Source: Pilasporangium apinafurcum (lineage: Eukaryota; Oomycota; Peronosporomycetes; Pythiales; Pythiaceae). Taken from it: a stretch of 64,000 bases of DNA. The DNA is taken from the NCBI GenBank assembly GCA_001600495.1, contig BCKE01000007.1, forward strand, positions 811,316-875,315, read 5' to 3'. Below the pieces are notes generated by a model. It was given only the letters and a program-made list of their open reading frames with translations, was not told the DNA's origin and made no database searches. A program made the position numbers and the translations under genes. Below, piece after piece: positions 1,495-61,221 of the stretch (positions within the stretch are counted from its first letter, which is position 1; each line of letters starts with the position of its first letter).

Positions 1495-1628
1495 GGGAGA
1501 TAGAAGAAGTCCTAACGAGAGATTAAGCATCAGCAAGGTAGCAAATTATAAGTGTTGTACCCCTTCAGACGGTCCTTCATCGGATTGATCCAAACTTAAT
1601 CCAAACCGAAACTAACCCAGCTGGATGA

Positions 1629-2735
1629 AAACTATACTAGCATCTAATGTAGCAGGTGCCAGCCTAGAATTGACGGAACTGCTTGCGCACGTTAATTGGC
1701 TTGGTCTCCGAAGCAGATTCGACTTCCAAGACGTTGAAGCGCACAGTCTTGGCGAGTGGACGGCACTGGCCAATGGTCACGACATCACCTTCCTTCACAC
1801 GGAACGCAGGCGACACGTGGGCAGCAACGTTCTTGTGACGCTTCTCGAAACGCTTGTACTTCTTCACAAAGTGCAAGTAATCACGACGAACGATGATGGT
1901 GCGCTTCATCTTGGTCGAGAGCACAACACCCTTGAGGATACGGCCACGGATCGAGATGTTACCAGTGAATGGGCACTTCTTGTCCACATACTGGCCTTCA
2001 ATGGCAGCCTTTGGGGTCTTGAAACCAAGACCAACTTCCTTGTAGAAACGAGGACCCTTCTTCTTGCCGGCAAACTTCTTGCTGGCAAGGAAGATGCCTT
2101 CTTGCTTCTGGAAGGACTTTTCGGTCTATATATTTAGAAGACAAAATCAAAAGGTCAGTACACGTGAGTTTCCTGCAAGCACAGACGAAGAGCTCTTTAT
2201 GCAGCAGCAAAATTGGTTGAACAGCAGCCTTCTCCATTTTCTATCAACACATTCCTGCCGATGATGAATCGGATTTTATTACTTTCGGAATGGAATTCTC
2301 TCTCTCCACACACACTCGGGCGTAGAGAAATGCTTTCGTGCATATTCCATCCGTCTGCTCCTCTCATCCAAACAGAGAGAAGAGCAGATCACAATGGATT
2401 ACAGCCTTGGTGAGCCATCACCTCACCAACTAGCTAGCCAAATCGATCAGTTTCTGTTTTAGACAGACAAAGAAGAACCCTTCTGACACAACAAGTGGCC
2501 GCACAAGAAAGCACTTCCCGAGCTTGCCACACACACACCCACGTGTACGATTCCGCCTCTTATCGCAGCCTGTCCATCCTGTCTAGAAGCTAGTCTCTTC
2601 CTGACTTGAATGGTAGTGGGAGAGAGTGAGCAGTGGAGAGACGTTGATATACTCCATGTCGGCTTCGAGCTTCTACCATCATCTGCCGCGGTTCATCACG
2701 CAGTAAGCGGCGTTTACCTGGTCAACGTGTTCCAT
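1629..2735 (-). repeat. inverted repeat arm A (RPS11 coding region plus intron)
   Basis: This 1107-bp segment is an inverted copy of 17398-18504. Reading by eye I find four mismatches, all in the first 80 nt: one silent change in codon 2 and three early in the intron. Similarity stops at the start codon on one side and 35 bp past the stop codon on the other; the flanks are unrelated. Confidence 0.95.
1664..2735 (-). CDS. RPS11: 40S ribosomal protein S11 (uS17), left copy
   Basis: Two exons on the minus strand: 2718-2735 (six codons, MEHVDQ) and 1664-2125, separated by a 592-nt intron (2126-2717). The 159-residue product is full length for eukaryotic S11. Typical segments are [21 protein letters not shown] and [12 protein letters not shown]. 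It is a small-subunit protein that binds 18S rRNA. The start was chosen because the six-codon exon joins in phase to the family N-terminus. The protein is identical to the copy at 17398-18469, and intron identity is near complete. It is followed in the same orientation (upstream on the minus strand) by a complex I subunit gene, as in the right copy. Confidence 0.95.
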
Positions 2736-2991
2736 GATGTCTTTATGGGGCGTTCTTTACGAAAGTAAATGGGAGCTCAATCAAAGAGTTCATCTAGATC
2801 ACGCTCCAACACCAACCAAACCAAGATGGCTATAAACCGTCCCACAAGTGGGCTCTTATCGGACCACATTTGTAATGATACAGAAGTAACTATATGAAGT
2901 AGCATAGCTTCTTAGTGAAGATCAAAAGCAGAACGACTATCAGGTTGGTGCGAGACATTCATCGTATCTGATTAGATGAATCGTTCAAATG

Positions 2992-3469
2992 CTATTCATT
3001 ATTGTTGTTGTTGTTATGGTGCTGTAAATACCGTGCAACTTCTTCGTCATTACGTCCATAGCCTTGCAGTCGCAGTTCAGAGTTCTGGTATGCCAACATC
3101 CCACCAAGGATCGAACCCACGACACCTGTGAACCACATCGCCGGGCGTGCCATCGATCGGCCAAGTTGTCTACCTATGTAAGATAAGAAAATAATACAAG
3201 TTCATGATTGTAAGTGATGCAATCGGTCAACACAATAGGCACAGTATCGTGAGTTTCATATTCAACTTGCACATACCAACCAAGAATCCCATTGGGAAAC
3301 ACGCAATCCCCACAACGCCCCACTGTATTAAATCTGATTTGCTGAGATTGTTCTTCACCTGCTCAAACGTTGGATGTTCATAAATCACAGGAAATCGCGG
3401 TACACGTGGATCACGCAGTGTTGGCTTCTTGACCACTGGAGCTCCTCCACCATCATCTTCGCTCGCCAT
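2992..3469 (-). CDS. mitochondrial complex I 21 kDa-type subunit (NUXM), copy A
   Basis: Two exons, 3277-3469 and 2992-3173, joined in phase 1, give 124 residues. The protein resembles the plant 20.9 kDa and fungal 21 kDa subunits of NADH:ubiquinone oxidoreductase. The N-terminal RFPVIYEHPTF and the C-terminal pattern M-V-G-GG-AYQNS-RL-GY-ND-EV match that family. Two short hydrophobic segments suggest an accessory subunit of the inner-membrane arm. The C-terminus ends in an Asn run that may be a small repeat expansion. A paralogue with the intron at the same position lies at 16547-16958. In both places the gene precedes RPS11 on the same strand. The assignment rests on remembered family patterns, not on a search. 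Confidence 0.8.
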
Positions 3470-3685
3470 GATTGACCCAATCGAGGATAGCAAACCTACG
3501 AAACAGCATACTCGGCGAAATGTAAAAACATTTTTTACTCAACTGGTCATGTGGTAGGATGTTTTTACGCGTGTTTACGCTCGGTTTTTACGGCCCAGTT
3601 TTGAGGGAAACACACTGAGGATGATGAGGAAGAAGGAAAAATAATCTCCAAGCGGCACCCACTTGGACTGGCAGAAGCGAACGCG

Positions 3686-5744
3686 ATGGACGAGTGCTAC
3701 GCCGTCAAGAATTTCCAGTTCCTAGGAAAGGATGTGACCTACATCTGTCAGAACAGCAATGGACCGTGTCCGCTGTTGGCGATTGCCAATGTCTTGATCC
3801 TGCGCGGCCACTTGTCGATTAAGTCGCTTATTACTGAGGACGGCGTCATCTCGGCACAACAGCTGATGCATGCAGTGCTGCAGCGGCTGCATGAAACGAA
3901 CCCACCGGTAAACTTATTGTATAGCTGCTGTAAATGATTGGATTCTGGTGATGGTGACAATTGTTGGGTGAGCTTAGTGATTGTGAATATGGATACGGAA
4001 TATCTATGTAGATTCCGGAGACAAATGAATTGGCCCATTTAACGCAGAAGAAGACGCTACAGGACGTGACTGAGTTGTTACCAAGTTTACTAGTCGGTTT
4101 GGACGTCAATGTTCGCTTCCACAAGTGCGTATGGCGGTTAATGGGTTGATGATGGCTAGCAGTTGAGCTTCTAACGGATGATGCATATTGATTTGGATCG
4201 TACAGCATCACAGACTTTGAGTATACTGTCGCCTGTGCTGTGTTTGACATGCTCGATATCGCGCTGGTGCATGGCTGGCTGCTCGATCAGCAGGATGAGA
4301 AAACGGTATGCTCCCAAAAATCTCGTTGTTTGAGTTTGATAATTATCGTAATTTTGCTGACATTCATGTTGAATCTTTCATTTTCTAGCAACGTGTTGTT
4401 GGTAACAAATCGTATAATGAGCTGATCGAGCAGCTGGTAGACTATCGGGCTGTTCTCATGACTGAATCAACAACCGATCCATCTCCTTCTGCTGATGAAC
4501 CGCCGAACAACTTCGTTTCCACTACTATAAACGATGCAAAAGCATTGCAAACACCTCTACCATCGCAACAGGAGCCATTAGGGATAGAGGATCAATTGAA
4601 GACGTTGCGAATCGATGTTAATGGAATTGCTGAATCTGCGGAATCGATGCCACCGGCGAAGAAGAGTCCATCTAAGCAGACGGTGCAGACGTTGATGAAG
4701 GAACGACAGATAAGCGACGAAGCAGCCGTGGACAAGGCAACAGCATTACTGGAAGAAGGCCCCATTCTAGAAGAATTTTTCAACTCGACAGCCAGCCAAC
4801 TAACGTACTACGGGCTCGTGAAACTGCATGAAGAAGTGCGAGAGCGACAGCTCTGCGTGTTCTTTCGCAACAATCATTTCTCCACGCTGTTCAAGGTGCG
4901 CAACTGTCTGGAAAGCTAGTGTTTGATGCTGTGCCGGTTGCTTTGATGGTTCTAATACTGTTCTGAACTGTAGTATAATGGAGCATTGTATCTGCTAGTC
5001 ACTGATGCTGGATATCTAGATGAACCCACTGTCGTGTGGGAATTGCTGAACGAAATTGATGGCGATACAGAGTATCTGGATTCGGTATTTCGACCTCTAA
5101 ACGCGTCGGAGACCAAACAACAGACCATTTTGACGCAGCAGGAGGTGGAAAATCAACGGAAGCGAGAGGCTGATCAGCACAATTCGAACTCTGAGACCAC
5201 AAAATCGGATGCTATCACTTCGAATGAAGCATCACCACAGCAAGAGCAGTGTGTGGGTAGGAATCTCAGTGAAGACCAAGACTACCTACTTGCACTACGA
5301 CTCCAGCAAGAGGAAGAAGGGCGTGTAGCTGGACAAAAAGTAGCTTCGCCTGTAGTTGCTTCGCAACGGTTGCAGCCCATTGGAGCGGATCGAGATGCTA
5401 ATCATACCTTTAATGTTGACAACTCAAGTAGTAATGGAGATCCTGGTACGAGTGGTGCCGTTGCACCAGGTGCAAGCGAACATGGCGCTACTGAGGCTGT
5501 GAATGAAAATGAATTTATCCCGATGGTGATCGATGGGCAAATCATCATCACAGAGGAAGAATTAGAAGCACAGCGTCAGGCGGAACGCTTCTATCATGAG
5601 CGAAAACGCCAAATAGAAACTGAAAATTTCCAGCTGCAGCAACAAATACCACATCAGCAACCAGCTGCCAACCAGTCTGTCTACAATCCACGCGGCGCTA
5701 GTCCATCACAAAGACGCCAAACCAGTGAATGCAGCCTCATGTGA
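3686..5744 (+). CDS. MINDY1/2-like: MINDY-family (FAM63/DUF544) K48-linkage deubiquitinase
   Basis: Five exons (3686-3907, 4012-4124, 4206-4305, 4389-4895, 4974-5744) keep phase and give 570 residues. The catalytic centre is clear: QNSNGPCPLLAIANVL near residue 22 carries the nucleophile Cys28, and CVFFRNNHFSTL carries the catalytic His. The segment DFEYT...VFDMLDIALVHGWL is typical of the domain. A C-terminal MIU-type ubiquitin-binding helix (EDQDYLLALRLQQEEE) follows, then a Gln-rich tail. MINDY enzymes trim K48 ubiquitin chains. The protein ends CSLM, a possible CaaX prenylation box. An acidic/Gln-rich insert of unknown role separates the catalytic halves. Confidence 0.92.
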
Positions 5745-5886
5745 AGCTCTAAATCACGAACAGCAGTAAGTCATAAAATTCGTTTTGCCAATTCGAGTCT
5801 GTTGATATTTAAATAAAATAACTACGAAAATTGTATGTGTGCATTCTGATCGCCTATTGTACTATGTCGTTGGTTCTGAAGCTGTT

Positions 5887-7434
5887 TTAAATTTTGATCA
5901 TGACCGCGTCTGTCTCCACTTCAGGTTTTTCTTCGTCCTCGTCCATGACTATGTCCTTGGCGCTGCTGCACGTGTTGCTGAGACGGATAGCTGATGTCTG
6001 TGCAGCAGCCGTGGTGCACACGTCCATATGCTCTCGTGACTGGCGTACGAAATCAAATCCAGCAAAATCGCGTTCGTAGGAACTCGTGAGCTCTTCGGCG
6101 ATGTAAATTTGGTGAGGCTGGGCCGTGTATTGCGGATCAAAGTTGTTGACGAGCGTTGTACCTGCTGGACCGGGTACAAGTGGTGGCACAAGCTGCTTCT
6201 TGAGCACTTTGTCCCAGTCGACACCTGTAAAGAACGGATGCTGTTTGACTTCAGTAACACCCTGGTGGAACCCTAAGCGGTCTTCCTGCTTCTTCTCCAG
6301 CAGCGCCATGAGCAAACTCTTCAGTTCCTTCGACATGTTGTTGGGATACCGTACGCTCTGATACAAGATTCGCTGATGTGTGCTCTTCTGACTCGATTGC
6401 GGGATGTAGAATGGTGGATATCCGCAACGCAGTTCAAAGAGGATGCAGCCGAACTGCCACATGTCCACAGGTAGCCCATGGCCACCCGGGTACCGACAAA
6501 CCATTTCAGGTGGCAAGTACGTGTCAGTGCCACACATGGTTTTTGTGCGTCCATGACGACCATCCAGTCGCTTTGCCAGTCCCATGTCCGCTAATTTGAT
6601 GTGACCGTCAGTGTCAAGCAGCACATTTTCTGGTTTAATGTCGCGATGCAGGATGTTCATGTTATGCATGTGCTCGATCGCCAGCAGCAGTTCGGCGGCG
6701 TAAAACTTGACAGCGTCTTCGTTGAAGCAGCCACCGTGGTTCTGCATGTGCAGAAAGAGATCGCCACCGGGCATGAACTTGGAGATAAGAAAAACCGACT
6801 TACCTCGTGCCAATGCATAGTCAAGTCCCAAGATGAATGGATGATCAGCGACCCACTCCATTACCGATCGCTCCGTGTATACGATCTTGGCTTTCACCTG
6901 ATTGAGCTTCATCTCCTTCACAGCGAAAAGCTCTTTTGTGGTGACACTGCGTGCAAGAATAACACGGCCGTAGTGTCCCTTACCCAACACTTTGAGTGTT
7001 TCGAAGTCATTGATCGATGGGACATGTCGCTGAATGGCAGCAGCCTGACAGGCAAACTTGGCGCGGTCTTTTTCCGTATCGGCCGCAAACAAGATGGCAC
7101 CTTTGCCACTTTCGGGCGTAATGCAAAACACATAGCCTGCTGCATCGTCATCGACCATCTTGATGGTGCAATTCTGCAAGTTTAGGTATTTAAGCGTACG
7201 CTCGTCTCCCTTCGTTGGTGATGCAGATCCACCTTCTTCAGGGTTCTTCGTGACGCGGTAGTAGACCAAATACGTCGACTTGATCATGGCGCAGTACTTG
7301 TGCGAGCTCCAAACAGGGAGGAACTGTCGGCGCTTGCGAAAGAGATTGATAAATGTCGACGGCAACGAATTGATGAAGGCCTTGGCTTCATCACTAATGG
7401 CTCCGTCCTTCCGTGAAAACACATTCAACACCAT
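5887..7434 (-). CDS. PH-domain AGC protein kinase (AKT/PKA-like)
   Basis: A single exon of 515 residues. Residues about 30-135 look like a pleckstrin-homology domain; the kinase domain spans about 144-405. Visible motifs are the glycine loop GKGHYGRV (about 150), AVKEMK with the ATP-site Lys, HRDIKPEN (about 261), TMCGTDTYLPPE in the activation segment, and a C-terminal AGC tail with FAGFDF (about 455). Odd points are DMG in place of DFG, PPE in place of APE, and Asp at the usual Ser/Thr of the hydrophobic motif. PH-AGC kinases usually respond to phosphoinositides. It converges with MINDY, 142 bp apart. The exact subfamily is uncertain. Confidence 0.9.
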   Translation of the reverse strand: MVLNVFSRKDGAISDEAKAFINSLPSTFINLFRKRRQFLPVWSSHKYCAMIKSTYLVYYRVTKNPEEGGSASPTKGDERTLKYLNLQNCTIKMVDDDAAGYVFCITPESGKGAILFAADTEKDRAKFACQAAAIQRHVPSINDFETLKVLGKGHYGRVILARSVTTKELFAVKEMKLNQVKAKIVYTERSVMEWVADHPFILGLDYALARGKSVFLISKFMPGGDLFLHMQNHGGCFNEDAVKFYAAELLLAIEHMHNMNILHRDIKPENVLLDTDGHIKLADMGLAKRLDGRHGRTKTMCGTDTYLPPEMVCRYPGGHGLPVDMWQFGCILFELRCGYPPFYIPQSSQKSTHQRILYQSVRYPNNMSKELKSLLMALLEKKQEDRLGFHQGVTEVKQHPFFTGVDWDKVLKKQLVPPLVPGPAGTTLVNNFDPQYTAQPHQIYIAEELTSSYERDFAGFDFVRQSREHMDVCTTAAAQTSAIRLSNTCSSAKDIVMDEDEEKPEVETDAVMIKI

Positions 7435-8269
7435 GTTTGTGTGTAGTTGGATTGTGTTACTACTTTGCTTGTAGTGATCAGTAATGAATAGACTGTGTTA
7501 AGATATGTGAGGCGATGCTCCAATCCAAATGTGACACACAGGTAAAGCTGTCACTTGGATCGATGAGTGAAAGAGAGAGAGAGACGTTGGAGATATGAAT
7601 GTCTCGTCCGGCAAGAACACTTGCTGTACGTTGCCGAGGTAAGGGTCGAGAGCTAATGTAGCTCCAACACCGACTGTGGATCCGTTAGCTACGTGAACTT
7701 CCTTATTCGTGCGCTATATCGATAAGCATGGAATGATATAAATAGCGAGAGAAAATACACAAACATGCATTTCTCTTGTTTGATAGTCAAGTCCCATACA
7801 TGCGAGAAGAAGCGACATGCCAAAAGTGTTGGGTAATCAGATCGGTCATTAAATAAACTTGTAGCTCTTCATAAATAGATCGCTTTGCCGTTTCCTGCCC
7901 AATCATCGGCGCAATTAAAGAATAAGATCAACTGATTGGACAAATATAGGGACTCCGGTAGAACAAAGTTGAAGTTCTTTGGCTTTATGTGAACACTCAA
8001 AGCTTGCCATCCATTATGACCAGACTAGATGCAAGAAAATTGTAAACCTCGATTGCTAGCGACATGGGTATTATTATTCGAACTTGAGTATGGATTCATT
8101 AACGGACCTCTACTCATCAATGTCAGGTTTCGTGTCGCGCTGAGAAATTCGAAAGGTTAGGAGAAGATTAATGTGTGCAGCGATACGTCTCTTTGTTTTT
8201 TTCTGCCCGTTTCGTACACAACATCTCTGATTAAAGGACACAGAAGATGCGAGTCCCATCTCAACTATC
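7435..8269. other. intergenic, no gene seen
   Basis: This 835-bp stretch holds the 5' flank of the AGC kinase gene and the 3' flank of RPN10. I see AT-rich stretches and short GA runs but no supported gene or RNA. Confidence 0.6.
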
Positions 8270-9997
8270 TCACTTGTCTTCCTTCTTCTCCTCGTCTTTC
8301 TTCTCGTCCTTCTTCGTCATCTGCGCCATCGCGGCTTGGATTTTTGGATCGTTGGGATCAACACCTGGCAGTCCCGAGAGCAGCGAGTTCACGAACGAGG
8401 CATCCATGAACGGCAGATTGGAGGCTGGAGCCGGGGCTGGTGGTGGAACCCCGGCCTGTGCTGATTCGGTTTTCTGTTCTTCTTGCACGGGTTCGGCTTT
8501 TGGTGCAGGAATTGGTGCAGGAGGAGCCTCCTACGATGTTAGATAAAAGAATATGACCAGTTAAGTCACCTATGCAATATTTGCTGTAAGCATATGCGGT
8601 TTTATAAAACATACTGCTTGCTTTGGTGATGCTGGTGCTGGCTCAGATGCTGGAGCAGCCGCTTCTTCCTGTCGTCGTGCTTCCTCTGCCGCACGCTTCT
8701 GAGCTGCTTCTTGACGAGCACGTTCTTCTTCCATTGACACACGAAGCGCCTGGGCACACACACAGATAGTTAGTCACCAGAGCGTTCAAGGTTAAACATT
8801 TGGCGGTTCATCGTTGTTCGTACCAGCGCCAATTCAGGGTCCATACTCGGGTCAACGCCTCCGTACTCTGCAAAGTCACCACCACCACCAACACCACCAC
8901 CCGCTGCTGCCGCAACGGCACTGTCATCGCCATGCAAGACTGGAGAAGACACCAAAACGTCTGAGGGCAACACGCCTGCAGGGACTGTAACGAGATGGCT
9001 AACGCAACAGATAAACAAGTACCATTAGCCACGCTTACTCAGACATAATCTTATCATAATTGCAATCTCCGTACCTGTTATTGTTACTGCTCGCAGCATC
9101 CACAAACACTTGCAGTTTTCCGGCATTAGCGTCCACTTCGCCCATGCTAATCACATCAACAGCAATCTATAACACCAACGGCATAATAACATGTCCGAAT
9201 TAGTTTGAGTTTTGGGGCGACTGATATACAGAGCGTGTAAACAAGTACATTGTTTTTCTTCAGGAGTTTGCCGATCTTGGTGAGTGTTTTCTCGTCTTCT
9301 GCAATTGGAGAGCCGATGAAAACAACCACTCTCTGTGCACCTGAAAATGATAAAGACCATTCAAACTAAGATGAGCTACGGCATCCGTATTCTTCCTGCC
9401 TCAATGCAAAGCATCAGGCACATAAGAGCACCCACCAGTCTTGTTTCTGCGGTGCTTGAGTGCGAGTTGCGCCACTTGAATAGCATTTGAGAGCTTCATA
9501 ATTCCCCCAATTGATACATTATGGATAGCAGTCAGTAACGTCCCCATATTGTCCGTAGGTGATGCTAACACTTGAACACTAGGTTGATTCACACATTCAC
9601 ATATTAAGCAACTTCGTTTTATTATCCACTGTATAATATATATGTGCACGCACCTCTTGCCAGCCATGGTCAATACCCCTACAGTGCTTTCTGGATTCGA
9701 CTGCGTCTTTGTACCACATAACAAATTGGCCGCATCATGCTGGGCCTCTAGTCGTGAGGGGATGTAGTCACCATTCCGCATCCACTCGGAATTATCCAAA
9801 CTATATAGCAAATCCAATATCACCAGATGAGTATCCAAACAAACGACAGCATACCGAGCGTAAAAAAAAAGGGAGATATCAGGAAATCAAGCACTAAAAG
9901 CAAGATCCATGCGCAGTCCATCATTCCTATCTATTCCCCCTTTCTCTATCTGCTGCATTTGGTAACATTACCATATCATCGTCGATTCGAGCGGCAT
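8270..9997 (-). CDS. RPN10: 26S proteasome regulatory subunit RPN10 (PSMD4)
   Basis: Eight exons on the minus strand: 9972-9997, 9654-9800, 9436-9578, 9249-9340, 9075-9166, 8824-8998, 8615-8749 and 8270-8530. They join in frame to give 356 residues. The start MPLESTMICLDNSEWMRNGD is the family N-terminus and is recovered only by adding the 26-nt first exon. A VWA domain (about 1-190) is followed by a Gly/Ala-rich linker and one UIM (DPELALALRVSMEEE), whose codons are split across an intron. Ala/Pro-rich sequence and a Lys/Asp tail end the protein. RPN10 is a ubiquitin receptor of the proteasome. Its start is 182 bp from the divergent gene at 10180. Confidence 0.95.
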
Positions 9998-10179
9998 GTT
10001 GGTCTATCCTCTTCTTCTTCTTAACTTCTTGCTATTTTTCCTCTAGTTGCGATCTCAAAGGTGCAAAAAGCCGCGTTAAGTACGAACCTGTTGCCTTCGA
10101 ATGTCAAAAATCAATAATCGACATTTTCGACATTCGATAAAATACAGCAGTCTGTGATTTGAGCAGCAACTGACTGAAG

Positions 10180-11244
10180 ATGGCACGCGGTGGTGATGAT
10201 GTCTCACCCATGAAGAAGGAGAATAGCAATAGCAAACGGCATTGGCAGGTACTGCGGCGTGCACTGGTCTCGCAAGCAAAATCCACCAATGCAGAGCTAT
10301 CTGCTACGATTTCCACGGCATCATCCATCGCCACCGAGTTTTTTCCTGTGTTTCTCGCTGAACCAACACACCCAGAGCTGCTTGTGACTGCACCCACTGC
10401 AGCGTTTGCATGGCTGACATACAACTTGTCCTTGCCAAAGCCACAAAGAAAGGATGCGTGTCGAGCAGTGATGGTGCATGTGCATGAGAAACGCAAAGAC
10501 AAGAAAATCTCCATTGCTGAATTGTTCAGCCATAAAGTGAATCAAGGCGTTGACAACACTGGCAACATTCGCACGTGGCCGTCGGAGGCTATCCTGCTAT
10601 CATATCTATTGCGACATGAAGTCTGCCAAAGTGTACAGCGTAGAGATGCAAATGGGATTCCAATTCCAATTAATTGTTGTGAACTGGGTGGCGGAATGGC
10701 AGGGTTGGCTAGTTTGGGCCTGCTGGCTCATTACCCTGTCGAGATAAATCGCTTTTTCATCACGGACGGCAATCCACTGGCGGTGCAAAATCTCAAGTTA
10801 TGCGTGGAAGCCAACCTTTCACTGGGTATATTTCCATCTGCCATACTTGCTGATGGTGGGAGTGGTGAGGACAACAAAACCTCTGTGACTGTTGAGCTGC
10901 TCCGATGGGATCGCCACATGTCTGCTTCAGAAGAGTTGCGAAATCGATTCGATTTGATCTTTGCTAGTGATTGCTTGTTTTTTGAAGACTTCCACGTTGA
11001 CTTAGCACACACAATCAAGCAATTGCTTCGACCGCGTACAGGACGTTGTTTGCTGCTGCAACCGAGCCGCAATGGATCAATGGAACGATTCATTCAAATT
11101 GCACAAGCACATGGATTTATGGTGCACCGTTCCGACGATTACGACCCCGAGATCACCCAGAAACATCTCCAGTACCAACAAACGCGACCAGACTACGTCC
11201 CGGACGTGCATTTCCCTATTTTTCTTACGCTCTCGTTGCCATAA
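10180..11244 (+). CDS. CAMKMT: calmodulin-lysine N-methyltransferase
   Basis: An intron-free gene of 354 residues. The segment VDNTGNIRTWPSE, the SAM-binding motif CELGGGMAGLASLG, TDGNPLAVQNL and the DLIFASDCLFF strand match class I methyltransferases of the CaM-KMT group (MTF16 superfamily). The known family member trimethylates one calmodulin lysine. It is somewhat longer than the human enzyme because of an N-terminal Ser/Lys-rich extension. The start at 10180 is the first ATG of the frame and sits 182 bp from the oppositely oriented RPN10 start, so the two probably share a promoter region. Another lysine methyltransferase of the superfamily is the alternative. Confidence 0.85.
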   Translation: MARGGDDVSPMKKENSNSKRHWQVLRRALVSQAKSTNAELSATISTASSIATEFFPVFLAEPTHPELLVTAPTAAFAWLTYNLSLPKPQRKDACRAVMVHVHEKRKDKKISIAELFSHKVNQGVDNTGNIRTWPSEAILLSYLLRHEVCQSVQRRDANGIPIPINCCELGGGMAGLASLGLLAHYPVEINRFFITDGNPLAVQNLKLCVEANLSLGIFPSAILADGGSGEDNKTSVTVELLRWDRHMSASEELRNRFDLIFASDCLFFEDFHVDLAHTIKQLLRPRTGRCLLLQPSRNGSMERFIQIAQAHGFMVHRSDDYDPEITQKHLQYQQTRPDYVPDVHFPIFLTLSLP

Positions 11245-11557
11245 CTTGGGCAAAAGATGGATGCAAAGGTTGTGAGTCATCGGTTTTGCTGTAGAGCTTA
11301 GATAATGTATGCACTTAGTTAAGTACGTATTGGCCAAATCTATTAAGTTCGTGCTCGTTGGTAAGTTTGTTGCAAAAAAGGGAAAGCAGAGGACACGTAG
11401 ATCTGGGCACTTAGGAGGAAACGTAGCCGTGCAGAAGAAAGCGGCAAATCTTTAGTTTTAGTAGCGGATCGTTTGCGTGTGCCTATCTATCCTATTCTCT
11501 GCTGACCAGAGACCTCTACGAGTCGTAAGAAACGCAATAGCATCGAAGTCCTGGGTG

Positions 11558-14451
11558 ATGAGAACAAACGCGTCGAATGTGAGTGGTTTCATAATAAGAG
11601 AAACTGGATATGCGGTTGCATGGATCATTTCTTTTTTTCTTAATGAATCAACGTCTTTGTATAGAGTGAGAATGGCGCGTCAGGGAACGTCCGTGTGTGC
11701 TGCCGTGTTCGTCCGCAGAATGCGAAGGAGTTGCGCATGCCTGACGCGAAGCGATGTGTTATGGTGACGGAGAATACCATTGAAGTGAAGGTACCTACAC
11801 AATCAACGCGTCTTCTTTTTGCTCTTACATCATTTCTTATTTGACTACATGGTCAACATGATTCTGTGGACAGACTGGCGACGGTACACCTCAGAAATTC
11901 ACCTACGACCACGTCTTTGGTGAGCAGGATAATCAGCAGACAGTGTTCGATACAGTTGCCCGCCCAGTAGTGCAAGGTATGGATTGTATGCTAGTATGAA
12001 TTGCTAGGTATTTGGTAATTTTGATCTGATTAAGTGGGCTCGTACGTCTTAAACATAGACATTATGGACGGCTACAATGCCACTATCTTCGCATATGGAC
12101 AGACATCCTCGGGGAAAACGTACACCATGGAGGGTGCATCCATCGATGATCCCGATTTACGCGGCATCATTCCTCGGACAGCCACAGAAATATTTAACAA
12201 CGTCATGGCTGCCGATGAAAATATGGAGTTTATTGTGAAAGTTAGCTATATTGAGATCTACATGGAACGCATCCGTGATTTATTGGACCCATACAAATCC
12301 AAAGTGAACTTGCAAGTTCGTGAAGACGCACAACGTGGGATTTTCGTGGAAGGCATGACCGAGACGTGCGTCACAAGCGATGAGGAACTACTTTCGACCA
12401 TGCGCGATGGTGCAGCGAACCGTGCTGTGGCAGCCACGGGCATGAACGAGGGTAGTTCGCGTAGTCACAGTGTCTTTATGGTCACATTGTTCCAGCGCAA
12501 TCTAGTCAACCAAGCCACTAAAGCCGGTAAGCTCTACCTCGTGGATCTAGCCGGTTCTGAAATGGTGCGAAAGACTGGAGCATCAGGGAAACAACTTGAA
12601 GAAGCCAAGACGATCAACAAGTCGCTGTCTGCATTAGGCATGGTCATCAACGCGTTGACCGATCCGAACGCAACACACATTCCCTATCGGGATAGTAAAC
12701 TGACACGTGTGCTGCAGGAATCCATCGGTGGTAACTCCCGTACTGCACTGATTATCAACGTGTCACCCAGTAGTTTTAATGCACCTGAGACATTGTCGAC
12801 GCTGCGGTTCGGTAATCGCGCGAAATCAATCAAGAACAAGGCCGTGGTGAATGAACAGCGCAGCGTGGAGGAATACAAACTTTTACTCGCGAAAGCAGAG
12901 AAGACAATCACAGTACAGCAGACGTATATCATATCATTGGAGGCTCGTTTGGCGGGTCTAACTGGAGGAACCGGAGATGGTGTGGCTCCAGGCGCGCTCG
13001 ATCTGAAACTGGATCTTGCATTGGACACGAATGAAGAAGCTGCAGTTACAGTGGATACCGATGACAGTAAAGTGGATGCAAGCGACGTCGCGCTAAATTT
13101 TGCGTCATCCTCACGGTCATCAATTTGCTCAGATGAAAATGGAGCTCCCCGTTCACCAACTAGTCGGGCGGCGATAGCGTTGGAAGAGCTTCAAGAGAAG
13201 GTCACCCGACTGGAAGAAGAGTTGGCCGAAGAAAAACTCGAATCCACCCGGCGTGGAGAGGAGATTCGGCTGCTCACAGTGAAAGTAGAAGAGCAGGCTC
13301 ATGCATTGGAGACAACCCGCGTTTTAAACGAAGAGCTTCAGAGTGTAAAGGACCTACAAGAGAAAACATTGGAGGACAAACTACGACATCGTGAGACTTT
13401 GCTTGCGGAATTGCGAGCAGATTATGAACGACTGAGCTTCGATCACAAGGAGCTCGTCATTCATGCCGAAACCATTCAAAGTGAATACGACTCCCTGCTC
13501 CGTGAGCTTCCACCAACAGCACCAGCAGGTTCGCCTGGAAAGCTTGCAGCTGCTGCGGTTGCGTCTAAAACTGCTGATAGGACAGCAGAAGCAGCAGAAT
13601 CAAAATCTGCGGCAGAAGGAACGGAAGCTGAAAGCGAAAGCAATACAATTAACGATGTACCAGCAACTAGCGAAGTTGCATCCGTAGAAGTCTCAGCAGC
13701 AGGCGAAAGTTCGAACGAATCGGTCGATTGGAAAGCGAAGTGCGCAACGCTGGAGACAGAGCTGAGAGAATACGAACGAGAATTCCGACAGCTACAAACA
13801 AGTACTGAGCGCGAGAAAACCCGTTTGCTCGAAGATATTGACCGGAAAAAGGCGCAGATTCAGGAGCTCGAACAGCAAGTGGATGGATCCAAGAATGCAT
13901 CGGCGAATGGCTCAACCTCGCCAAGCAATAGTAACTCTGGTATGTCTGCACGCGAGCGACAGCACATGCGCTCCATCCAACAGAAATTGGAACAATTGGT
14001 CGCGGTACATCGCCAGTTACTGCGCAAATATGCTTCCTTAGAGTTGGAGTTGTCCGAGGCAAAGAAGAAATTGGTGCTTCGTGACGAACGCATTAAGCAA
14101 GTCGAAGCCAACAACCGGATTATGGCTGGTAACATGCGAGCCCAGGCAGAAAAGCATGTCGAGGAGCTGACCCATCTGCGTGACCAAATTGCCGACTTTA
14201 GAGGTGCTCAGCGCTCGCATTTCGAGGCTCAAATGAGCAGCAACAACCTGGACACAAGTGTTATCAAGACGCTTCGTGGCGGTTCGTTCTATAACGATGG
14301 CGTGATTCGTCCGATTCGTGGTGGTGGGCGAAGGAAAACGGCGGCGCTTGGATCAGCAGTAGGTGGCACCTCATCAACTACGACGGATCCTTCAGTTCCA
14401 ACGACACCGTCGTCAGGATTTTTAAATCGTCTCTTTGGGAAAACCACTTAA
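11558..14451 (+). CDS. kinesin-1 type motor (conventional kinesin heavy chain-like)
   Basis: Exons 11558-11578, 11665-11790, 11874-11976 and 12059-14451 join in frame to 880 residues. The motor is N-terminal: VRVCCRVRP opens it, GQTSSGKT is the P-loop (about 97), NEGSSRSH is switch I and DLAGSE is switch II. NINKSLSALG-type sequence is also present (TINKSLSALG). After the motor come a neck and long coiled coil with an acidic Ala/Ser-rich break, then a basic C-terminus (GGGRRKTAALG). Kinesin-1 carries cargo towards microtubule plus ends. The first exon is only seven codons and rests on the GTGAGT donor and phase; an in-frame upstream ATG-less extension exists, so the exact start is uncertain. 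Confidence 0.88.
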
Positions 14452-14719
14452 GAAGAAGAAAATATTAAGAAGAAGTAGCAGATGTACTCGCACATAGAAG
14501 TGTACTCTTCGTTCAACTGTGCTTGCCAAAGTAATGCCAACAAAAATATCAACATGTTCAAGTATCAATTTCATTTTGTCAAGTGCGATGTATGCTCTAT
14601 TACAGGTTGAGTATTCTATAAGTTAGGATTTGGGCTACTGGAAGTGCTGGTTTTGGTCATTGATAGGCAGGAGAGAGAGGGGCAAAACAGCGCGGAAGTC
14701 TCTGCCTTTGAATCCCACC

Positions 14720-14941
14720 ATGTCGGTATATGACGAAGTGGAGATAGAAGATATGGAATATAATGCGGAGGAACAGGTGTACTATTACCCTTGTCCATGC
14801 GGCGACAAGTTCTTTATCCCGCTCGAAGATTTGTACGACGGTGAAGACATTGCGACGTGCCCAAGTTGTTCGCTTACGTTGCGTGTGATATTTGATGAAG
14901 ACGATCTGCCAGAATTGAAGGAAGAAGATGAGGAACCATGA
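14720..14941 (+). CDS. DPH3: diphthamide biosynthesis protein 3 (CSL zinc protein)
   Basis: A 73-residue single-exon protein. The start [14 protein letters not shown] and the zinc ligands in YPCPCGDKF and CPSCSL define DPH3/KTI11. It supplies electrons to the DPH1-DPH2 iron-sulphur enzyme that builds diphthamide on elongation factor 2, and it takes part in Elongator-dependent tRNA modification. An upstream in-frame ATG at 14630 would add 30 unrelated residues; the family N-terminus favours 14720. It lies 268 bp after the kinesin-1 stop on the same strand. Confidence 0.95.
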
Positions 14942-15192
14942 GCAAATCGACAGCTCCACTGGTCGCGAAGAACATGATCAGGCGAAAGTCCCTGTCTTCA
15001 TAAGAGATGCATGCTATAGTGTGCCCATTGTATCCACTGCAGTAGTGTAGGCATTTATATTCATAATATTGGCTTCAACTCCACAGTAGAGAGATGGCAA
15101 CAAGTATGAACTATTTCTAGCCGCGTAGATAGATGAGCAAATGGAAGAAACAATAGAGGGTTTTTATTTATTTCACCATCATCGTCATTCGT

Positions 15193-16222
15193 CTAGCAGC
15201 AAGTGTCTTTCTGTGCCTCATCTGTTTGTGGATTATGGATATGGAAGCTCTGACCGCTAGGCTTCGACCCGCCGGCATTAATATCTTTGGAACGCACGTA
15301 GATCCGCAGCACGAGCGCCTCCAAAGCGTCCGCGACGGTCTTGACCTCGATCGTTGGCTCATACTCGACTGTTTGCTTCTGCACCTTTTTCAACAGATCT
15401 GATACAAGCTCGCTACGCTCGGTTAGCTCGAAAAGCTCGCATTGGTTCGTCACTGCCGACGTGCGTGCGTACATGAGGCTATTGGCGATACGAAAAGGTA
15501 TTGTTTCGCTCGGATCGTGGTCGTGTAGCCATCCGAGTCCCTGTGGTGGGTCTTTAAACACAGTCGTTTCCAGCAGCCGCTTCACTTCATCTGACTGGAC
15601 AAATGTTGGCGGACGTTCCAGCGCTCGAGCATCAAGTTTGTCGATCTTGTTCTCCACGAGCATAACAGCAGACAACAGCGACGGATCGGCGTTGTCTTTG
15701 AGCGCACGTAGCCACTGATTCCCACCTGGGACACCTGGAAATACTTCCTTAAACGTTTGCTTCGCGCTCACATCGAAGACAACCAGTGCTCCTGCAGAGC
15801 GACGAAAAAGCAAATGGTGAATGCAAATCTGACAATACAAGAATGGCAGATGATCTATTACCGTGAGCTCGACGATAATGCGAGCTGGAAATTGCTTGAT
15901 AACGCTCCTGGCCCGCGGTATCCCATACCTGTGCACGAAGAAATTGATTCGGTTCACCAAATTTCCAGTCGGGACGTTGCACTTTCACTAAGTAGGAAGG
16001 ATAAGTGAGAACACTATAATTCTTGCTCTCAGTTGCTTCGCCAATGCTTTGCTGATTACCTGTGACGAACTCGGGCTGTAGTGTTGGTGGACTACGAGCA
16101 TCAAACTGTTGACCCCTCGCAGCTACTGACAGTAGATTTGTTTTCCCCACAGCAGCTGAGCCGATGAGCACGATTTTGTAGACGTACTCACTCTTGGATG
16201 GAGAAGCTGGTGGAGATTCCAT
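15193..16222 (-). CDS. large, atypical Rab-family GTPase
   Basis: Two exons (15862-16222 and 15193-15791) give 319 residues, about 100 more than a usual Rab. G1 is GSAAVGKT, the switch I region reads PTLQPEF where Rabs have T-I-G-x-EF, G3 is WDTAGQERY, and G4 is NKID. HYRRAHGALVVFDV matches the Rab helix 2/strand 4 region. About 30 extra residues sit between switch I and G3, and further insertions follow G3 and G4. The protein ends TCC, a double-Cys geranylgeranylation signal. It should act in vesicle traffic, but I cannot place it in a Rab subfamily. Divergent from the complex I gene at 16547. Confidence 0.85.
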
Positions 16223-16546
16223 TGTGGATTTTCAAGCGTAATTCCGCGTCGATGCGGTATTATATGCCTTTACACCGCGTCGTTTCTTGATGAGGCTGGA
16301 AACACAGACAGAATGACTATTAGACAGCCCGAAAATAGACCAAATTGGCAGTGATAGCAGGAAGAACCTCGCTATTCGTGTCGTTTCGGAATTGTATTTT
16401 AGGTACTCCACTGTACTACATTCATTATTAATTTATAGATTATATTTGTTTAAGGAGGATCATCCACTCCCCTCCACCTCCTCTGTTTTATGGTGGTCCA
16501 GAGTGGAGTGAACAGGAAGAAGGCGCATCAAACAGACAGCAAAGCC

Positions 16547-16958
16547 ATGAGCGACGGACTTCGTGATCCACGTGCGCCACGTTTCCCTGTGATTGTACAG
16601 CATCCGACTTTTGCTGATATCAAAGCCAACTTCGACGGTGCCGATTACCTCAAGTGGGGTGGCGTCACCGCTGCGTCCTTCTCACTCGGCTATGTCTTCG
16701 GTACGCACCATTACATGATGTTTCACTACGTTTTAGGTGATTCACAGACGTTATAGTACTAAGTATTGTGACTGTATGTGTATGTGGCAATAAACAATAG
16801 GCGCGAAATTGCACAAGCGTGTGGCTGGTCCATCCATGTGGGTGACGGGTGTGTTGGGTTCGTTGGGAGGCTTCTTGTGGGCGTACCAGAACTCATCCTT
16901 CCGTCTGCAAGGCTACAAGCAGAACGACGCGGAAGTGAAAAAGTACATCCGAAACTAA
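16547..16958 (+). CDS. mitochondrial complex I 21 kDa-type subunit (NUXM), copy B
   Basis: Exons 16547-16700 and 16801-16958, joined in phase 1, give 103 residues. It shares DPR-PRFPVI and the AYQNS-RLQGY-ND-EV-KY end with copy A at 2992-3469, and its intron is at the same place (after GYVFG). Identity to copy A is roughly 45% by eye. GPSMWVTG...GGFLWAYQNS is especially close to the plant 20.9 kDa complex I subunit. An in-frame ATG at 16490 could add 19 residues; I chose 16547 because it leaves a short leader before DPRAPRFP. The gene is followed by RPS11 copy B on the same strand. Confidence 0.82.
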
Positions 16959-17397
16959 ACAATGATGAACATGAAGCAGCTACAGAGTATTTTTCGTTTC
17001 TTTTTGTCGTCATCAGCCTCAAACAACAAACTTGCGGGCCAGGAATAACAGATAAATATACGAAGCCAACGATGAAGATAGGAGAATTCATCCGAGAGTC
17101 TTTGCTTCCTGCACATAAATATAAAAGAGAATGAATGCCAGTCAGCCAGAAATGCAGGCAGATTAGGTGCGGAGACAAACAACGTAGCATAATGTGTTGA
17201 TGTGGCGATCCACGATCATGAGCCTGCCAGTATTCCAAAGCTGCACATTTTACTTCATATCGCTACTTTTGGAGACCCATGGCAGATGTTTAAAACAATT
17301 TTGTTATAATTATGAGTGGTTTTTATGTGGTTGGTCAGGAACAGAGCTGTAGAAATGAACAATACAGTCACATTCCCGTTTCAGACCGATAGCCACC
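16959..17397. other. intergenic between complex I copy B and RPS11 copy B
   Basis: 439 bp with no gene. Its last part is the RPS11 promoter and leader (AGCCACC before the ATG) and shows no similarity to the flank upstream of the other RPS11 copy. Confidence 0.6.
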
Positions 17398-18469
17398 ATG
17401 GAGCACGTTGACCAGGTAAACGCCGCTTACTGCGTGATAAGCCGCGGCAGATGATGGTAGAAGCTCAAAGCCGACATGGAGTATATCAACGTCTCTCCAC
17501 TGCTCACTCTCTCCCACTACCATTCAAGTCAGGAAGAGACTAGCTTCTAGACAGGATGGACAGGCTGCGATAAGAGGCGGAATCGTACACGTGGGTGTGT
17601 GTGTGGCAAGCTCGGGAAGTGCTTTCTTGTGCGGCCACTTGTTGTGTCAGAAGGGTTCTTCTTTGTCTGTCTAAAACAGAAACTGATCGATTTGGCTAGC
17701 TAGTTGGTGAGGTGATGGCTCACCAAGGCTGTAATCCATTGTGATCTGCTCTTCTCTCTGTTTGGATGAGAGGAGCAGACGGATGGAATATGCACGAAAG
17801 CATTTCTCTACGCCCGAGTGTGTGTGGAGAGAGAGAATTCCATTCCGAAAGTAATAAAATCCGATTCATCATCGGCAGGAATGTGTTGATAGAAAATGGA
17901 GAAGGCTGCTGTTCAACCAATTTTGCTGCTGCATAAAGAGCTCTTCGTCTGTGCTTGCAGGAAACTCACGTGTACTGACCTTTTGATTTTGTCTTCTAAA
18001 TATATAGACCGAAAAGTCCTTCCAGAAGCAAGAAGGCATCTTCCTTGCCAGCAAGAAGTTTGCCGGCAAGAAGAAGGGTCCTCGTTTCTACAAGGAAGTT
18101 GGTCTTGGTTTCAAGACCCCAAAGGCTGCCATTGAAGGCCAGTATGTGGACAAGAAGTGCCCATTCACTGGTAACATCTCGATCCGTGGCCGTATCCTCA
18201 AGGGTGTTGTGCTCTCGACCAAGATGAAGCGCACCATCATCGTTCGTCGTGATTACTTGCACTTTGTGAAGAAGTACAAGCGTTTCGAGAAGCGTCACAA
18301 GAACGTTGCTGCCCACGTGTCGCCTGCGTTCCGTGTGAAGGAAGGTGATGTCGTGACCATTGGCCAGTGCCGTCCACTCGCCAAGACTGTGCGCTTCAAC
18401 GTCTTGGAAGTCGAATCTGCTTCGGAGACCAAGCCAATTAACGTGCGCAAGCAGTTCCGTCAATTCTAG
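17398..18469 (+). CDS. RPS11: 40S ribosomal protein S11 (uS17), right copy
   Basis: Exon 1 is 17398-17415 (MEHVDQ) and exon 2 is 18008-18469, around a 592-nt intron that ends TATATAG. The 159-residue product is identical to the left copy. The start has a good context (AGCCACCATGG). Codons lean to G/C-ending forms, as expected for a highly expressed gene, and L32 and spermidine synthase in this window do the same. It converges with the MORN gene, whose stop lies 115 bp downstream. Both RPS11 copies look intact and both should be translated. Confidence 0.95.
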
Positions 18470-18504
18470 GCTGGCACCTGCTACATTAGATGCTAGTATA
18501 GTTT
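17398..18504 (+). repeat. inverted repeat arm B (RPS11 coding region plus intron)
   Basis: The partner of 1629-2735 in opposite orientation, 1107 bp, nearly identical, with no length difference. The arms are 14.66 kb apart. Confidence 0.95.
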
Positions 18505-18583
18505 CCAATCAGGTTGCTAATCCAATTTAGGATTTGTTTGAAGGGGCATTATGGGAATGAGTTGTGCATCTTTGTTTTTTGTA

Positions 18584-21050
18584 TCATTTGGTTGTGTATC
18601 CAAGCTCTGCCTGCTTCAACTCGACACTCATTTTAGTCAGTTCCATAGTCATAGCGCGCTGCAGTTGTACCTGCTCAGTCAGGGTGATCCGCTCCAGCGA
18701 AGACTCAAAATCCTTCAATTCCTTTTTGCGTGGTGATAAATTGTATTTTTCCTTGCGAAACTTTGCACGATTGGCTTCATATTCCTTCATAGCCAATCGT
18801 TCTTCTTGTACACGTTTCAATTCCTCCGGATTTAACTCTGCGTCGTTCTTGGCCAGTTGCTTCTTTTGAGCCCACTGTTCGTAAAACTCGTCCAGCGACG
18901 TATAATATAGACTCAGGTTGGCAAACTCACGCTGCTGGAGATATTCTTTTTCACGAGTCTGCCGTCGGAGCGCATTTTTCTTTCTTCGATGTTCTAGTTT
19001 CTGAAGTTGTTGAGGAAGAGTATTCGTCAAGAACGGCATTTTCTCAACGCTTCTACCATTTGTAGTAAACGGCAAGTAGTGTGTATGCTTCTTATGAAGA
19101 TCTACATGACGATGACGTGCATGAGTTTCACCATGCACAAAGCTACCTTCATACCAAAAGTCCCATTTATCGTCCTCAGCTTCTCCATTCGACTGCACTT
19201 CTTGTTGCACAGCATGTGTACTCAGATTCGAATTGTTATTGCCCATTTCCAGGTAGTAGAAATCGCCACGTCCGTTCATCATATTGTCATGCCAGAAGCC
19301 AATGTGTTTAGCCGTCTTGCCCATGAAATAGGATTCTCCACGACCTTCTTTCTTCCCGAGCTCAAAGAATCCATCATATGTGTCTCCATTACGTTCTTGC
19401 TGTCGTCCTCGACCATTCAATTCGCCTTTTACAAATCGTCCTTCTTGGAAAGAACCATCAGGAAATGTCCGCCTACAACCGTCTCCATGCAAAAGTCCAT
19501 CGAGAAAGCTCCCTTCCTCAATGACACCTGTCGAAGATGTATATCTTCCCATGCCTGTGACTTTCCCGTGGTACATTTCACCCTCGTACTTGGCGCCGTC
19601 AGGAAACGTCACCACCATTCTCTCGCCATGCTCCACACCATCACGAAAAGCATCTCCATTGAGTAAAGAGCATGGATAGCCACGGCCTTTGTATTTCCTC
19701 CCGTACCCATATCGTTGCGTTGGACGGGCAAATGTTCCCTCGGAAGTTGTGCCTTTGCCATAGACAAGTTTGCCTCGCCCTACACGAGCATTGTTAGCGA
19801 AATCTCCTTCATAAACGCCGCTATTTGTATACTCTTTGCCCATGCCATGCTTCTCGCCAAGCCGCCATTGTCCTGAGTAGACTGAGCCAATTGATGATAT
19901 ATGAAAATCTTCATCATATGGACTCAAAGGCGGCTTCTCCTCGCTTTCAATACTAGTAATTGGTGCCATGTACTCTCCCTCACCGTGCTTCAATCGTTGA
20001 AGCCGTACGGCGCGCATATTGATCTCTTTGGTCATGTCCTTTGCACTGATGACTTCGTTTTCCACCTGATCGTCCTCAAGAAACGCCTTTGGGTGCGGCC
20101 GAGTTTGCACAAGACATACGTAGTTCCAATCGCACTTTTCTATGGCTACGGATGCCAATTCACGACCTCGTGAGCTTATGAAGGCAACAGCCCATGTCCT
20201 AGTTTCAATCTGCTGGTTCGACTGACTATTGTTGCCTGTATCTGATGATTGCTGCTTCCTGTTGTCAACTGGCAGCAAAGATAGTCGCATCGGCTCTGTA
20301 GACAGAAATTTCTCGATTCGTTTCCGTTTCTTCACCAAGGTTTCCAGTTCTTGATCGTATCGGGAAGCGTGAGTAGCGATTGCAACGGAGAGTTTCCGGC
20401 GAATCTCCGCTTGTTGCTCGGCCGTTCCCTCAACGTCTATGGTCGGTATCGCATTTGTTTTTTCCTTGAGCAAAAGCTTCTTCTTCTGCGCCACTTCGAT
20501 TTCTGTCTTCACCTTCTGTAGTGCTGGAAAGTCTTGAGCAATGCCAAACAGTAGCCATGTCTTCACATCCAGCTCTTCACATTGTATAGGAACATAAGAG
20601 AGTACGAGAATCGCTTCGCCAGTGTACATGGGATCTCTTAAATCGTCCTGCGGCGGTGGCTCCAACCGCTCGTGGATAATATAAAACCATCGATCTTTCC
20701 CCGCTGGTGGAAGCACCTGCGTCATCCAATCTTTTGGCCACAAAACATCTGCAAAAGGACTCAGCACATAGTCGAGTGCAATATCTGACTATAGAAGTGG
20801 ATCAAACCCAATGGTTAAGAGGTTTATACTCACTGCCAAAGGGGTCTTTCAGAAATGACGCGTTGCACTGGAAAAGCATGTTGATCTTCTTGAGTGTGAA
20901 ATCCGACCGTAAAACCTTTTGGAATTTGTGATCTTCAGGCTTGGCACACTCTGGATCATATATAGCCACTAGCATTTGGTCCTCTTTCATCATCTCGACC
21001 ATCTTCCCGGTCTTCCGATCCATCACGAGTCGGCCTGTGCGCGTCGCCAT
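18584..21050 (-). CDS. MORN-repeat protein
   Basis: Exon 1 is 20834-21050 and exon 2 is 18584-20784 (phase 1 junction), giving 805 residues. The middle (about 310-530) carries a run of roughly eight MORN units with the usual Y-G-W or Y-G-F, GxG pattern (for example YSGQWRLGEKHGMG, YEGEMYHGKVTGMG, YDGFFELGKKEGRG). A basic, helical C-terminus with Glu/Lys/Arg runs follows. MORN repeats commonly bind lipids or act as rulers in membrane and flagellar structures. The N-terminal 230 residues have no domain I can name. The start follows MATRTGRLVMDRKTGK; an upstream in-frame ATG at 21128 is less likely. Confidence 0.85.
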
Positions 21051-21267
21051 TGTTGCTATGTGTGTGTTCCTTTGCTTCAAGTGCGGAATCGTGAAAAGCC
21101 ACGATATATATAGAAACGTTAGAATCAATTTTTTAATGCTGAGTATGCTTTTAATTTAATATTTAGGATTTTATATATAATATGTAGTATTCTTTTAAAT
21201 AAAACGAAGCTTCAAGTGGCAGACAGATACACCAAAGTCGGTGAACACATAACCTCGCGCTGCAACC

Positions 21268-60055: not shown

Positions 60056-60335
60056 GCTTCAATGTAAGTTTCCCGCGAAAAAAGGTCATATCAACGAACT
60101 TATACATAGACTAATTTTATCAAAATTATCGACAAATAACCCTAATTTTAGTACGCATTTATTACTTCGTGCAATTATTTTACCTGGCGGTTAACAGAAT
60201 ATGGACCAGACTGTAGTGTTTATGGGCTTTCGAGGTCGATGATTGGATTAAAATATAATTTTGGATTTATGATTGGCTGAAATAGAAGAAACTCAAAGGA
60301 GGTTGGTGGTGAAGGTGGTGAAGGTGGCGACTTGA

Positions 60336-60468
60336 TGGCAAAATGAAAAGTGAATTAGATGGAGGACTTAGTTCGCTACCACTACATCTAAGCTCCCTTT
60401 CAATGCATTCTTTCCTAATCTGATTACGATCAGCTTTCTACTTTCTTCCTTTACACATGTATTATATG
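60336..60468 (+). repeat. 133-bp direct repeat, copy A
   Basis: About 93% identical to 61222-61355 in the same orientation. Its right end stops ten bases before the hAT left terminus. The sequence before it, with GATTGGCTGAAAT at about 60279, also has a counterpart before copy B. Confidence 0.85.
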
Positions 60469-61221
60469 TGTAATTGGCAGACCTCCTAATTTTCGGAAAT
60501 TTCCTAATATTACGAAATTAGATTATTTTCGGATAAAACGTAATTTTATTTTCGGAATTTCCGGAATGAGCGTAATTTCTGTGTATTTAGACAACAGGAA
60601 GCTTCTGCAAATCTTCAAACTGTTTCGCATGCATAATGCCTTCCAGAGACAAATCCGTTAGGGCAGTTCTGAACGAATTCTTCTCATATCTCAAAACAGA
60701 AAAATCGCTTTCGACTGTCGCGGTACTTGGAAAGGCAGAAGCGAGCCCACCACAATACTGCATCAGAAGGGGGAACCGTTCGCTAGTTATTGCCCACGCT
60801 TGTTCAAAAGTCAAAGTTGCAATGTTTGAATTATCAACAGCGGTCCGAAGTACCAATTCGTTGCGATAAGCAGAAAGGAAATCAACAAATTGTTGGCTGA
60901 GTATTTCGAGGTCGGCATTGGTGAACGAATTCTGAAGTCGACGTAAATGTAGTTTGTAGATTTCAACAAATCGCCGCATGTTCAGTTTGGCAAGTTGCAC
61001 TGGAATAACAGGAGGTAGTTCGTCTCCAGGTGCATTCGATGAGTCTCGCTCGGCAACGATCTCGGTTATCCCTTGCGCCAGTTGAGTGAATATCGATGCA
61101 GTTGCTGTAACAATGACGTACGATGATTGGTCGAAAAACTGAGTACTGAAAGATGATTGGCTGAAATCCGAAACTTGAAACTTGGACGGTCGTGGAACTT
61201 GAGGAGGAAGTAGTGAGTTGT

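Follow-up and report, generated by a model that had tools for sequence, protein, structure and literature searches.

Near-identical inverted RPS11 genes beside diverged complex I paralogues in the oomycete Pilasporangium apinafurcum: a probable case of ectopic gene conversion

The 64,000-bp stretch of Pilasporangium apinafurcum DNA analysed here (assembly GCA_001600495.1, contig BCKE01000007.1, positions 811,316 to 875,315; hereafter the window) carries two genes for the ribosomal protein RPS11 (uS17), which face each other at a distance of ~15 thousand bases and are almost identical, intron included. The next gene upstream of each RPS11 copy encodes a complex I subunit of the family PF10785. 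We consider it probable that the complex I–RPS11 pair is an old inverted duplication, and that DNA-level ectopic gene conversion later overwrote RPS11 up to the limits of homology.

Comparison of the window with itself reveals one long inverted pair, in which 1626-2742 aligns with 18507-17391 at 99.4% identity over 1117 bp, ungapped. Each arm contains a complete RPS11 gene, composed of an 18-base exon 1, a 592-base intron and a 462-base exon 2 that includes the stop codon. The sequence-only reading that preceded this analysis had put the difference between the two copies, intron included, at about four of 1107 positions; ungapped alignment of the block that opens at the ATG and closes 35 bp beyond the stop gives exactly four among the 1107 sites. 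These are situated at window positions 2730, 2694, 2692 and 2666, at distances of 5, 41, 43 and 69 bases from the first base of the start codon, and a single identical run of 1037 bp fills the rest of the arm. Non-coding DNA inside the tract is homogenised too, 540 of the 592 intron bases lying within that one run, although the exactness of this match is subject to the assembly. Only one of the differences falls in coding sequence, where it is silent, and the two encoded proteins, of 159 residues, do not differ. Both RPS11 domains (PF16205 and PF00366) are recognised by Pfam in each copy, and the protein has 125 distinct matches in the Protein Data Bank; among the 60 listed, nearly all are named S11, S17 or uS17. 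When the 36.5-Mb assembly was queried with the RPS11 DNA, matches were found at these two places only.

The complex I neighbours present a different picture of divergence. As the sequence-only reading had described, the complex I gene and RPS11 occur in the same order on opposite strands; both pairs were found and are named by Pfam. The search made with paralogue 1 relates it to NDUX1 and to the plant 20.9-kDa subunit, and the protein query identified only these two genes in the whole assembly. The intron of the two paralogues interrupts the same aligned residue in the same phase, which bears out the common intron position proposed earlier. The earlier estimate of about 45% identity between them is right as to divergence and slightly low as a figure, 51 of 99 aligned residues being matched. 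The comparison of synonymous divergence that had also been proposed separates the two gene pairs clearly: the RPS11 copies differ at 1 of 105 silent sites (silent divergence, dS, of 0.01), versus 50 of 70 for the complex I genes (dS about 2.2). The RPS11 paralogues therefore resemble each other more closely than so old a duplication would permit, as judged by the genes next door and on the assumption of one joint duplication.

The flanks of the arms had been described as unrelated just outside the gene. This holds downstream, where the likeness of the 300 bp next to the two arms is no better than that of shuffles (the score was reached by 169 of 500). Upstream it does not hold entirely, as the 300-bp regions have a 21-bp stretch alone in common, with 18 of 21 bases alike and a score reached by 4 of 500 shuffles. 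Equally good matches to the upstream region of arm A were obtained in 3 of 1000 random window draws, draws near the arms being skipped yet counted in the 1000. The 21-bp match hints that the upstream regions of the two RPS11 copies are paralogous too. The related claim of different promoters is affected in the same way: the upstream regions have diverged, but one 21-bp element seems common to them. In 8 loci of other ribosomal protein or histone genes, the best matches to this element have 5-8 mismatches, versus 6-7 in shuffles, so that the element does not emerge as a general motif. Comparison of 1-6000 with 14001-22000 returned the RPS11 block and the two complex I exons, the remainder being only weak (E 0.04 or worse), so that the arms have no further genes in common beyond RPS11 and complex I. 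The same order and orientation on both sides, together with the common upstream element, favour one old paired duplication.

In the sequence of events that we prefer, an old duplication would have set the complex I subunit gene and RPS11 in inverted order on one chromosome, after which the promoters, the intergenic DNA, the 3' flanks and the complex I genes would have diverged until nearly saturated. Enough homology for ectopic recombination would have remained in the conserved coding sequence of RPS11, so that a break in one RPS11 copy could be repaired from the other, with the region of exon 2, intron and exon 1 copied up to the non-homologous flank. Repeated or recent events of this kind would keep the RPS11 gene body near-identical. 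Genomic DNA is the simplest template, and ectopic gene conversion the simplest process, because selection on the protein cannot fix an intron and a spliced-RNA donor would not contain one. The sharp borders at the gene, which the sequence-only reading had stressed, are indeed seen; they need no special mechanism, because a repair tract ends where homology ends and the promoters and 3' flanks have long diverged. All four differences lie within 70 bases of the upstream limit, the part of the tract that copying would be expected to reach least often. Such a placement of all four in the terminal 70 of 1107 bp was reached in 2.5e-5 of random-placement trials, a post hoc figure that is inflated by alignment edges and that assembly collapse can mimic. 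We infer that the two genes were duplicated jointly, that conversion and not assembly lies behind the last fraction of identity, and that dosage selection keeps both copies; any direction and date of the conversion would be inferred likewise.

The near-identity of the RPS11 copies and their very low silent divergence would also be expected from a recent duplication, in which RPS11 alone was lately copied beside the second complex I paralogue, and the single-copy appearance of five other ribosomal protein families implies that RPS11 was not duplicated as part of a wider doubling. Four of these families gave one match each and S8e a second, weaker match, which was taken as a different protein; the counts are lower bounds for large families. 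The recent copy nevertheless seems improbable to us. For a second RPS11 to land next to a paralogue of the same neighbour, oriented alike and bounded by the ATG and a point 35 bp beyond the stop, would be an unlikely coincidence; moreover, the differences between the copies are not uniform, the upstream element seems common to both copies beyond the identical block, and the intron is present with no poly-A after copy B. Whole-genome doubling was considered separately and rejected, as the ribosomal protein genes of the five other families are not generally doubled.

Selection alone, that is, extreme constraint on the whole RPS11 gene including the intron with no exchange between the copies, accommodates the conservation of RPS11 and the occurrence of the intron position in the two ciliate-like RPS11 genes described below. 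It is hard to reconcile with 540 bp of intron that carry no difference and yet contain no long open frame and no structured RNA recognised by Rfam at E up to 1 (window 1-20500), and we regard it as very improbable. A gene nested in the RPS11 intron was also considered and set aside, the longest stop-free stretch being 81 residues. We also note that the strand opposite RPS11 exon 2 is free of stops over 173 codons in arm A (window 1616-2137, +) and 170 codons in arm B (17996-18508, -), which is perhaps a by-product of codon bias.

Several points weigh against an old duplication followed by conversion. The clustering of differences at the edge is partly expected, as alignments fade at their ends; the upstream likeness depends on a single 21-bp match; the concerted evolution would be deduced from one genome; and in none of seven distinct near-identical pairs does a base difference lie 96 bp or more from both ends, 91 bp being the greatest depth reached. 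The last of these is what assembly collapse would produce, in which two real, similar copies lose their inner differences to one consensus used twice and only differences near the unique flank survive; a k-mer assembler merging near-identical copies would leave just such clean interiors. The seven pairs are RPS11, CAP-like, Fanzor-like, H2A, the H2B pair, the third H2B and a dispersed repeat, with a gap artefact left out. They are drawn from a table of 49 alignment rows, some of which repeat one pair, rows shorter than 250 bp or 100% alike between overlapping loci having been dropped. The CAP-like pair was counted on its 516-bp block; a longer alignment (95.5%, 579 bp) contains one difference that lies 96 bp or more from each end and was taken for an N.

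The undetermined bases of the assembly also speak for collapse. The region scanned comprises 264 kb (200 kb upstream and the window), in addition to histone loci obtained from one PF00125 search. Runs of 100, 155 and 3974 Ns and 8 single Ns are present in the 264 kb, and a 3.6-kb dispersed-repeat stretch beyond it (L051) adds one double and six single Ns. The 100-base run is situated between identical 312-bp ends (C7:782288-783011) and is probably an unmerged contig overlap, and one N lies in the CAP-like pair, 76 bp from the end of the identical block. Against this, collapse requires copies that are already near-identical, so that strong homogenisation stays true, and the two RPS11 copies have separate junctions at both the 5' and the 3' end and are set apart by a private silent difference. 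Within the window a single N is present, at 62950, and some Ns may be masked stretches rather than assembly gaps. Among the 37 alignment rows below 97%, 3 contain identical runs (116, 135 and 167 bp) with differences retained to either side. We rate it as unlikely that collapse made most of the exactness. Collapse may have sharpened the RPS11 identity, and it is with this reservation that an old pair duplication with homogenisation of RPS11, as the sequence-only reading had it, stands as the best reading of the anatomy.

RPS11 is the only inverted pair of at least 98% identity and at least 300 bp within 30 kb in the 264 kb scanned; one more such inverted pair, of the dispersed repeat, is found in the 3.6-kb stretch, 13 kb beyond it. 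The latter (C7:595035-596837 and 621850-623652) is 99.9% identical over 1803 bp, with differences 2 and 91 bases from one end, and one of its copies begins right at a run of Ns; the copies of this repeat scored elsewhere are 86-93% alike. The labels H2A, H2B, H3, CAP-like and Fanzor-like are names that we assume from the sequences, the histones having been reached through PF00125. The inverted H2B pair (C47:198929-199803 and 203007-203881), with an H3 gene in between, matches over 875 bp with one difference 2 bases from the end, and a third H2B copy, 80 kb from this pair, is 98% alike over 368 bp. The inverted, divergent H2A pair (C63:93361-94426) matches over 458 bp with one difference 7 bases from the end, and its flanks are unrelated. 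Two pairs are direct. The tandem CAP-like pair (C7:731092-731607 and 734088-734603) is identical over 516 bp except for one N, and its identity extends from exactly the ATG to the start of the Thr-rich tail, the upstream flanks being unrelated. The Fanzor-like fragments (C7:789750-790255 and 796563-797069) match over 507 bp; at one end the differences are confined to the outermost 31 bases, and a single-base gap lies 16 bases from the opposite end. Their translation resembles what we take to be a Fanzor/TnpB C-terminal zinc ribbon.

The members of each homogenised pair (H2B, H2A, CAP-like, Fanzor-like and the dispersed repeat) lie on the same contig, no more than about 25 kb apart. Among dispersed H3 and repeat copies, likeness ranges overall from 76 to 93%: three intact H3 copies on different contigs reach 81-83%; 38 of the 40 scored copies of one repeat (from 240 first-look candidates) reach 86-93%, the other two being the query and a near neighbour; and for a second repeat, with 40 scored among 316 candidates, matches longer than 300 bp are at most 85% alike. 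The earlier claim that only RPS11 was homogenised is thus valid within the complex I–RPS11 pair and not for the assembly, where other local pairs (H2A, H2B, CAP-like and repeat) look the same and are equally clean. Local pairs seem to be homogenised in general in this assembly, RPS11 being one of them, in a sample of repeat pairs that is small and not random. That local pairs are alike and cross-contig copies are not fits conversion falling with distance, which the cited part of PMC3966223 describes for worms.

The arms are near-identical inverted repeats of 1.1 kb around a unique spacer of 14,662 bp, and the spacer is predicted to invert if conversion resolves as a crossover. We propose tentatively that the arms may serve as a standing recombination switch, in which a crossover would flip the 14.7-kb spacer and exchange the promoter and partner before each RPS11 3' end, with both orientations present in populations. 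The complex I–RPS11 order would be kept in either orientation, because a complex I paralogue precedes each arm in the same order.

Concerted evolution of a ribosomal protein gene pair is a known phenomenon, of which this locus would be a well-formed case, set in an inverted repeat. Evangelisti and Conant are said to have dealt with conversion between yeast duplicates in 2010. Homogenised inverted pairs, intron conversion, fall-off with distance (from which one human study dissents) and concerted evolution of ribosomal protein genes are already described in the portions of the literature drawn on here (PMC9731477, PMC3966223, PMC4679983, PMC4700949). By analogy, the closest parallel to the RPS11 arms is the flip/flop region of Saccharomyces chromosome XIV, where homogenised 4-kb inverted repeats surround 24 kb and, in the part of the paper cited, the authors ascribe near-identity to conversion during non-allelic recombination (PMC9731477). 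Both systems have inverted near-identical gene pairs on one chromosome with a spacer of similar scale, and the flip/flop spacer can invert. In contrast to the flip/flop region, for which both orientations are reported across strains and species, the present case consists of one genome, 1.1-kb arms and an intron-bearing ribosomal protein gene, with inversion only predicted.

Yeast ribosomal protein and histone duplicates are, in the excerpted account of PMC4700949, also highly expressed complex members kept alike by conversion. They differ from the RPS11 pair in that they stem from genome doubling and, for the ribosomal protein duplicates, lie on different chromosomes. The introns of yeast ribosomal protein paralogues are described as divergent in the cited section of PMC5755908, and it is by contrast with these introns that the homogenised RPS11 intron stands out most among the features of the locus. 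Plant ribosomal protein families, RPL9 among them, show concerted evolution, their duplicates being more alike within than between species. The resemblance lies in the involvement of ribosomal protein duplicates; these are larger families kept after genome doubling, as far as the quoted part of PMC4679983 goes, whereas here one inverted local pair is found in one genome. The inverted hsp16-48 modules and other local paralogues of Caenorhabditis resemble the RPS11 pair in being local and in some cases inverted, and conversion may take in their introns, which are mostly very short (median 65 bp) versus 592 bp in RPS11, by the figures in the cited part of PMC3966223.

The interest of the locus is that it provides a natural experiment, in which two genes were apparently copied together, one pair drifted and the other was overwritten, while the intron points to a DNA template. 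Comparison with relatives would date the conversion and test whether distance governs homogenisation. The locus also carries a warning that clean repeat interiors in draft assemblies need a read check before concerted evolution is claimed. The coordinates of the features are collected in Table 1.

Table 1. Features of the RPS11 inverted pair and its complex I neighbours (window coordinates)
Feature	Position	Strand	Details
Arm A: RPS11 copy A, ATG to 35 bp past stop	1629..2735	-	1107-bp block, ungapped match to 18504-17398
RPS11-A exon 1 (MEHVDQ)	2718..2735	-	spliced translation
RPS11-A intron, 592 bp, GT...AG, phase 0	2126..2717	-	3 differences, all in first 52 bases
RPS11-A exon 2 with stop	1664..2125	-	PF16205 and PF00366; identical to copy B
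Arm B: RPS11 copy B, ATG to 35 bp past stop	17398..18504	+	
RPS11-B exon 1	17398..17415	+	spliced translation
RPS11-B intron, 592 bp	17416..18007	+	spliced translation
RPS11-B exon 2 with stop	18008..18469	+	translation, Pfam domains
21-bp element upstream of RPS11-A	2881..2901	-	145 bp before ATG; 18/21 alike to 17251-17271
21-bp element upstream of RPS11-B	17251..17271	+	126 bp before ATG; 18/21 alike to 2881-2901
Complex I 21-kDa (NDUX1 / 20.9 kDa) subunit paralogue 1	2992..3469	-	two exons, intron 103 bp; PF10785 1.1e-18; PDB NDUX1 chain 6x89_X1 1.2e-11
Complex I 21-kDa subunit paralogue 2	16547..16958	+	two exons, intron 16701-16800 (100 bp); PF10785 2.1e-23
Spacer between arms, 14,662 bp	2736..17397	.	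both complex I paralogues and MINDY, kinase, methyltransferase, kinesin, CSL zinc-ribbon and Ras-like coding stretches

A literature search found nothing on this locus. Queries with RPS11 and complex I gave no match in the collection viral_contigs, and the plasmid search gave none. In genome_contigs the RPS11 query returned 3 loci, two of which appear ciliate-like by sequence and one of which is in an archaeal record; none is from a close relative. No complex I neighbour was seen beside these loci, in a listing that mixes in the window's own loci. In one of the ciliate-like RPS11 genes, in-frame stops that are read through occupy positions at which the other encodes residues. The ciliate-like contigs are binned in bacterial genomes, and their RPS11 genes contain a short intron (L003 4383-4420 and L004 467-504) at the same place as in the window, after a Gln codon near the start, hinting that the RPS11 intron position is old.

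Pfam matches were obtained for 7 of the 10 coding stretches scanned in the window (MINDY, kinase, methyltransferase, kinesin, CSL zinc ribbon, Ras-like and MORN). A direct repeat is also present near the contig end, where window positions 60269-60468 and 61153-61355 are 84% alike.

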